A DNA stretch of 36,039 nucleotides from Thiotrichales bacterium (lineage in GTDB: Bacteria; Pseudomonadota; Gammaproteobacteria; UBA5335; SLRW01). Below the pieces are notes generated by a model. The model had not been told where the DNA came from, made no database searches, and worked only from the letters and a program-made list of their open reading frames with translations. Positions 12,128-31,418 of the stretch are shown here, piece by piece (within the stretch, counting starts at the first letter, position 1; every line of letters starts with the position of its first letter). The DNA is taken from NCBI GenBank assembly GCA_003567955.1, contig PWYF01000189.1:1-36039 (forward strand), read 5' to 3'. The position numbers and the translations under genes were made by a program.

Positions 12128-12307
12128 GGCCGTGCTGCGGCACGGCCGTTTCAGGTTTCAGGTTTTAGGTTTTATGACTTTTTGGAGCGCGGCATAGCCG
12201 CGCGGGTTTGATCGAGGCGCTTGATGGCGAGGTGCGCGAAGCGCACGAGCCGTACGTCCTCAAACTTAAAACCTAAAACCTAAAACGCCCCGCGCTTTAG
12301 CGCGGGG
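12128..12307. repeat. Composite intergenic element A: inverted 7-bp-period arrays with GC-rich mini-hairpins
   Basis: GTTTCAG-GTTTCAG-GTTTTAG-GTTTTAT (12148-12175) faces inverted AACTTAAAACCTAAAACCTAAAAC (12264-12286); hairpins GGCCGTGC-TGCG-GCACGGCC (12128-12147), GCGCGGC-ATA-GCCGCGC (12187-12203), GTGCGC-GAA-GCGCAC (12232-12246), CCCCGCGC-TTTA-GCGCGGGG (12288-12307). Confidence 0.9.
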
Positions 12308-12348
12308 TCATGCTAGAATCGCCGCCTTTCCGGGCAGGCACTTGCGAC

Positions 12349-13598: not shown

Positions 13599-13629
13599 GT
13601 TTTAAGTTTTAGGTTTTAGGTTTTAAGAC
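13599..13629. repeat. Element B: single 7-bp-period array upstream of miaB
   Basis: GTTTTAA-GTTTTAG-GTTTTAG-GTTTTAA-GAC, four units, no inverted partner nearby. Confidence 0.9.
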
Positions 13630-20488: not shown

Positions 20489-20589
20489 GTTTTAGGTTTA
20501 AGGTTTCAGGTTTTAAGACGCGCGCCGAAGGCGCGCAAATCACTTAAAACCTAAAACCTTAGACTTAAAACGCCCGGCCGGAGGCCGGG
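20489..20589. repeat. Composite intergenic element C: inverted 7-bp-period arrays with GC-rich mini-hairpins
   Basis: GTTTTAG-GTTTAAG-GTTTCAG-GTTTTAA-GACG (20489-20520) faces CTTAAAA-CCTAAAA-CCTTAGA-CTTAAAAC (20543-20571); hairpins GCGCGCC-GAA-GGCGCGC (20520-20536) and CCCGGCC-GGA-GGCCGGG (20573-20589); a further CCCGCG-CTACG-CGCGGG (20598-20614) covers the RND stop codon. Confidence 0.92.
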
Positions 20590-31312: not shown

Positions 31313-31418
31313 GTCTTATAAAAAACGTCTTAAGTCTAAGGTCTTAAGTCTTAAGATGGTCGGGCCTTCGGCCCTTCCCTGGTAACGTAGTCACGTAACA
31401 ACGCCGCGCGCAGCGCGG
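31313..31418. repeat. Element E: 7-bp-period GTCTTAA array plus GC mini-hairpins, downstream of pilE
   Basis: GTCTTAT (31313-31319), GTCTTAA-GTCTAAG-GTCTTAA-GTCTTAA (31327-31354); hairpins GGGCC-TTC-GGCCC (31362-31374) and CCGCGC-GCA-GCGCGG (31404-31418), the latter next to the pilE stop. Confidence 0.85.

Follow-up and report, generated by a model that had tools for sequence, protein, structure and literature searches.

Comparison of the intergenic block between uvrA and a divergent MFS transporter gene with repeat arrays of many other bacteria indicates that this block is probably (at a rough probability of 0.7) a non-autonomous, MITE-like derivative of an S23 element. The window, that is, the whole analyzed stretch of 36,039 nucleotides, comes from a Thiotrichales metagenome-assembled genome (MAG). 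Several results of the sequence comparison support this reading: (i) facing heptamer arrays are associated with S23 genes, (ii) the two ends of an element match each other in inverted orientation, (iii) S23 elements and gene-less minis with one heptamer occur together, and (iv) reciprocal filled and empty sites are found in homologous plasmids. The association between arrays and S23 is strong at the class level; the history of the window copy and the chemistry of movement are what we infer.

The preliminary description of two inverted heptamer arrays and four hairpins between uvrA and the MFS gene was confirmed. The left array (12148-12174, plus strand, 27 bp) reads GTTTCAG GTTTCAG GTTTTAG GTTTTA followed by TGAC, and the right array (12260-12286, minus strand, 27 bp) reads GTTTTAG GTTTTAG GTTTTAA GTTTGA followed by GGAC. 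These period-7 arrays face inward and are inverse copies of each other, as in S23 elements; the 35-nt arms are 83% complementary, and the inner 20-nt pair reaches 95%. Outer hairpin 1 (12128-12147; GGCCGTGC TGCG GCACGGCC, 8-bp stem, 4-nt loop) abuts the left array, and inner hairpin 2 (12187-12203; GCGCGGC ATA GCCGCGC) has a 7-bp stem and a 3-nt loop. Hairpin 3 (12232-12246, 6-bp stem, 3-nt loop) lies inside the recurrent inner module GGCTCGTGCGCTTCGCGCAC (12232-12251, minus strand), which reads inward from the right array. Outer hairpin 4 (12288-12307; CCCCGCGC TTTA GCGCGGGG, 8-bp stem, 4-nt loop) is located 6 bp upstream of the putative MFS -10 box TAGAAT (12314-12319, plus strand), which stands outside the element and is preceded by TGC, giving it the look of an extended -10.

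The block is composite and non-coding, as previously proposed. Its 85-bp interior carries neither an S23 (PF05635) gene nor any other gene, and therefore we classify it as a gene-less derivative and not as a full S23 element. It shares with MITEs small size, lack of genes, terminal inverted repeats, and a high copy number, being one of dozens of such short copies. It does not resemble a standard intrinsic terminator, since the U tract is absent on either side: the sequence from 12308 onward is TCATGC, and past hairpin 1 the opposite strand continues with ACAACTATT. The predicted RNA fold of 12128-12307 has an energy of -97.8 kcal/mol (z = -7.3), and an Rfam search of the window returned zero matches. 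The block sits between uvrA and the MFS gene and not in a helix of 23S rRNA. Integron attC sites (GTTRRRY) and CRISPR were set aside on our reading of the sequence.

The array belongs to a repeat family, and the refuting condition set in the preliminary description, uniqueness to this locus or occurrence at chance frequency, clearly fails. The motif GTTTYAGGTTT with at most one mismatch has 14 matches in the window versus 0.41 expected, a number reached by none of 100 shuffles, and the whole MAG contains 117 one-mismatch matches to the doubled heptamer (14-mer) versus 1 for the reversed control. More array sites are present in the window, so that the uvrA/MFS element is not unique even there: a single array GTTTTAAGTTTTAGGTTTTAGGTTTTA followed by AGAC (13599-13625, plus strand) between the MFS gene and a miaB-like gene (UPF0004/radical-SAM/TRAM), an inward array pair around a GC hairpin (20489-20515, plus strand, and 20545-20571, minus strand) with two more GC hairpins outside on the right, and a variant array GTCTAAGGTCTTAAGTCTTA (31334-31353, plus strand). 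The array copies of the window are located between genes. Throughout the MAG, arrays are typically 27 bp long and consist of three heptamers and GTTTTA, followed inward by AGAC, with element interiors ranging from a few bases to some hundreds; the smallest pair found is nearly back to back around the centre AGACGTCT (L010). Module GGCTCGTGCGCTTCGCGCAC was found in seven copies among the fetched loci of this MAG, six of them just inside a GTTTTAG-type array.

The proposal that each array is accompanied by a GC hairpin holds in part. An immediately adjacent outer hairpin, defined by a stem of 5 bp or more that begins no further than 3 nt from the array, accompanies 36 of the 62 GTTTTAG-type arrays examined (2.0 in shuffles); the feature is not universal, and some of these hairpins are AT-rich. 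The presence of 33 different stems among the 36 argues against one single REP sequence. Outer hairpins were not obvious by eye around many minis of other phyla, and thus they look like a local habit rather than a defining feature. At an orthologous tRNA spacer compared with the sister MAG G001 (L009 760-890 and L050), the inner hairpin and the flanks are conserved and the right array is shorter by one unit (4 to 3); the right outer hairpin of the sister MAG still forms a hairpin, but its stem sequence is entirely different.

A scan for exact arrays in 85,462 species genomes revealed them in Bacteroidetes, Acidobacteria, Planctomycetes, Patescibacteria, cyanobacteria, Wenzhouxiangella, and others. 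Array pairs in Saprospiraceae (L060) and Planctomycetota (L097) each enclose one gene, assigned to PF05635, the S23 or 23S rRNA intervening-sequence protein. Best flank periods of 62 S23 genes, drawn from gammaproteobacteria and array-selected genomes, were 7 in 52 cases, 8 in 6, and 6 in 3, whereas period 7 was the best for only 4 of 157 non-S23 control genes from S23 genomes. These 157 genes replaced a first control built on array-selected loci, which proved biased, with period 7 the best for 110 of its 254 genes. A period-7 sum of at least 1.4 was observed for 68 of 85 S23 genes versus 1 of the 157 controls. An inverted flank-to-flank match of at least 16 of 21 nt was found for 61 of the 62 S23 genes and for 2 of 62 in shuffles; control genes reached 16 in 15 of 80 cases and 18 in none of 80. 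Further S23 matches, taken from plasmids and one further family, with a pair of identical sequences and a split gene among them, have period 7 in 26 of 28 cases. In the S23 elements inspected, the arrays enclose no gene other than S23. Beyond the preliminary description, arrays thus appear, by sequence comparison, to be the ends of S23-type elements in many phyla, the window copy being a probable gene-less version.

The heptamers vary from element to element, with 50 distinct units among 57 S23 elements, while the left and right arrays of an element are inverse-matched. Read inward, the S23-flanking heptamers are G-rich and C-poor (35% G, 12% C). Units resemble each other about as much as by chance when S23 identity is below about 45%, and their similarity climbs once it exceeds 55%; since units and proteins diverge in parallel only above about 55%, this pattern fits shared descent as well as recognition. 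S23 genes of cyanobacterial plasmids are also flanked by heptamer arrays. In a type I-D CRISPR operon of the Anabaena sp. 90 plasmid pANA02 (L227), an S23 element with GGTGACA arrays separates cas6 from cas4. A further locus, L226, has an S23 element between ribonucleotide reductase subunit genes.

The S23 protein (PF05635, about 120 aa, "four helix bundle protein") is homologous to XCC0516 (PDB 2GSC, five chains in the entry) and weakly to bAvd. In comparison with known families, it matched no recombinase and no DDE or Y1 transposase family. Avd is a retroelement accessory protein, and the likeness of S23 to it raised the idea of reverse-transcriptase dependence. Of 23 genomes tried, 10 gave a PF00078 match; the closed S23 genomes G130 and G133 gave none, so that a resident reverse transcriptase of this family is not required.

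Gene-less minis and full elements with the same heptamer occur in other genomes. Doublets of GTTTYAR flank S23 in 5 of 30 loci, mostly from array-selected genomes (L139, L142, L145, L147, and L152), and in none of 30 loci of the unselected class sample. The heptamer of the window was thereby found at S23 genes elsewhere (L060/L139, L097/L145, L142, L147, and L152). In Acidobacteria MAG9 (G239), an S23 copy bears AGTTTCAAGTTGCAGGTTTCAGGTTTCA (L142), and nearly the same arrays recur in no fewer than five minis without a gene (L058, L061, L068, L075, and L101). Rhodopirellula SM50 (G245) has GTTTCAG arrays both at S23 (L147) and at L066, so that each of these two genomes contains an S23 partner together with minis. 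An S23 search of the array-selected genomes G236, G244, and G248 returned none. In our MAG (92.7% complete, 270 contigs), S23 with GTTTTAG ends was not found; a single S23 sequence turned up, a fragment (L107/L214) cut by a contig end and located behind an 8-mer array. The subterminal GTCGCGGG-type sequence of this fragment was also found within 31 arrays of 8-mers and 6 of heptamers, which suggests that heptamer and 8-mer units are two branches of a single family of elements.

Plasmids of Nostoc ATCC 53789 (L225) and Nostoc C052 (L232) share an operon. An S23 element is present on each, and the two differ in their heptamers; where one plasmid has its element, the corresponding gene junction of the other is unoccupied. 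Such reciprocal empty junctions in homologous plasmids mean that S23 elements evidently move. Site A reads GGTTCTAGGTTATGC when empty and GGTTCTA, element, TTATGC when filled, with no duplication. Site B reads GAGGTAATGGGATTTG when empty and GAGGTAATG, element plus 33 bp, ATGGGATTTG when filled, with ATG possibly doubled. Both insertions are exactly between stop and start codons, and a uniform target duplication was not seen at these two sites.

At the uvrA/MFS site, the empty state was seen in order-level relatives only, where the distance from the uvrA start to the residue aligned with MFS residue 14 is about 66-74 bp without an array, compared with about 292 bp here. The same-family relative G002 (L217, first 130 bases of the reverse complement) has at this position a long GCTGTTA array of about 18 units, which runs to the contig end, uvrA itself being beyond that end. 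It is followed by a hairpin with a different stem in place of hairpin 4 and then by the conserved sequence ATGCTAGAATC with TAGAAT, as in the window, in agreement with the candidate -10 box named in the preliminary description. Two more orthologous gaps contain different unit families in sister MAGs, with interiors and units replaced between relatives. Different arrays in orthologous gaps suggest that sites are re-used or arrays rewritten, and in-place turnover or insertion hot spots must therefore be added to plain insertion.

A full S23 element consists of one small gene between two inward-facing arrays of about three to six heptamers, the heptamer varying among elements and being inverse-identical at both ends; in minis, just the two facing arrays remain, around a short interior that is often rich in hairpins. 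In the proposed mechanism, the S23 protein, solved as five-chain assemblies, may act on paired arrays in trans and so move minis. Because array sequence turns over, the arrays may serve as ends by repeat geometry and base pairing as well as by sequence. Cutting and joining could be performed by host enzymes or by an unrecognised activity, and settlement between genes could reflect selection or target preference. The strong transcript fold (z = -7.3) and the known excision of rRNA intervening sequences (IVSs) by RNase III (PMC4990558) make an RNA or single-strand stage possible. Most likely, the uvrA/MFS copy is selfish, a passenger with strong hairpins that keep the two divergent genes apart as a secondary effect.

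Among other explanations, a host regulatory element is improbable; here the facing arrays and hairpins would fold in RNA as a two-sided structure that ends transcription or shields uvrA from the MFS gene, and copies would be retained for that role. The stable fold, the hairpins at 36 of 62 arrays, their persistence with different stems at orthologous sites, and the intergenic location of the window copies all suit such a function; the missing U tract at uvrA/MFS, similar arrays enclosing S23 genes in many phyla, the order-level relatives lacking the element, and the replaced interiors and units count against it. A little less probable still is an unrelated transposon with a transposase not identified, to which the minis would belong and of which S23 elements would be passengers. 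The failure of S23 to match a recombinase family, the lack of a clean target duplication, and array-bearing genomes without S23 would be accounted for in this way; against it, S23 stands alone between the arrays in the inspected elements, and 50 different heptamers would require equally many transposase specificities. Simple slippage, which would give tandem repeats of the SSR/STRR or G-quadruplex type without mobile origin and with S23 merely nearby, is strongly disfavoured and the least credible of these explanations. Such an origin has been published for heptamers (PMC4692102) and agrees with the unit number differing between orthologues (4 to 3, L009/L050) and with long arrays (L217), but slippage does not place inverse-matched arrays on either side of the genes of one family (61/62), nor does it lead to reciprocal empty sites or to period 7 at 52/62 S23 genes versus 4/157 controls.

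The heptameric repeats of cyanobacteria, previously named as the nearest precedent, were a sensible choice: STRRs of filamentous cyanobacteria are likewise 7-bp tandem units in intergenic DNA, and the likeness is one of layout. The block resembles MITEs and REPIN/RAYT systems in being short, inverted, gene-less, multi-copy, and probably served in trans by one small gene; it differs in that its ends are tandem heptamer arrays varying per element and that S23 matches no DDE or Y1 transposase family. The Coxiella IVS contains an S23 gene, terminal inverted repeats, and GACAGAT heptamers just upstream of the ORF, and has been termed a selfish element (PMC4990558). 23S rRNA IVSs share these three features with S23 elements, but they reside inside 23S rRNA and are excised by RNase III, whereas the elements described here are intergenic and the window copy is gene-less. 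TAACTGA heptamers form intergenic arrays in Beggiatoaceae, cyanobacteria, and Bacteroidetes, and their author proposed that the mobile element might be a protein binding the repeats; by description they are set apart as mostly direct, unpaired arrays with a regulatory reading (PMC4679880).

Xanthomonas GGGAATC heptamers, with which the Nostoc heptamers GGGGA(C/T)T have been treated, occur mostly as four units in 70-75 convergent, mostly intergenic pairs per genome and are said generally not to accompany mobile elements (PMC4692102). We found an exact GGGAATC triple repeat in 1 of 369 gammaproteobacterial genomes (G386). In contrast to the published description, arrays of the CGGGAATC type border the S23 genes of this genome and of its family. 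A protein from a member of this family matches XCC0516 (E = 1.8e-42), and the family is presumably that of Xanthomonas.

Intergenic heptamer repeats of cyanobacteria, xanthomonads, and Beggiatoaceae have been described separately without a common origin, and the gene for S23, the "four helix bundle protein", is common among bacteria. In the literature covered, which leaves out most preprints and subscription papers, no link of S23 with heptamer arrays in general was found. Such a link offers a testable explanation of both, namely a mobile element with changeable repeat ends, and the old question of how 23S rRNA IVSs spread becomes open to direct experiment. We regard as evenly balanced the broader proposal that S23 elements form a class of bacterial transposable elements that is widespread and has so far escaped recognition, with one 120-aa four helix bundle protein, no recognisable recombinase, and changeable facing-heptamer ends that keep their geometry and inverse matching; gene-less copies would then explain many heptamer families, and rRNA IVSs would be copies landed in 23S genes.

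Other repeats were also observed in our MAG (G000). The second, very abundant family consists of 8-mer arrays GTGATTAC (190 two-mismatch matches, 0 in the control), which also occur in inward pairs with conserved subterminal GTCGCGGGA...GTTGC (for example, L193 1063-1314, L194 1041-1263, and L195 1087-1390). The third unit family is GTGTTCC/GTTTTCC (L276, about 2000-2420; L205, about 1145-1180), one copy of which surrounds an interior rich in GGGACACCCATCA-type repeats. A separate dispersed repeat of about 270 bp, GGAAACACTGATTTATTCGTCACG... (L015 1743-2010, L103 487-754, and other loci), is present in this MAG and in the sister MAG G001 and is sometimes nested between heptamer arrays.
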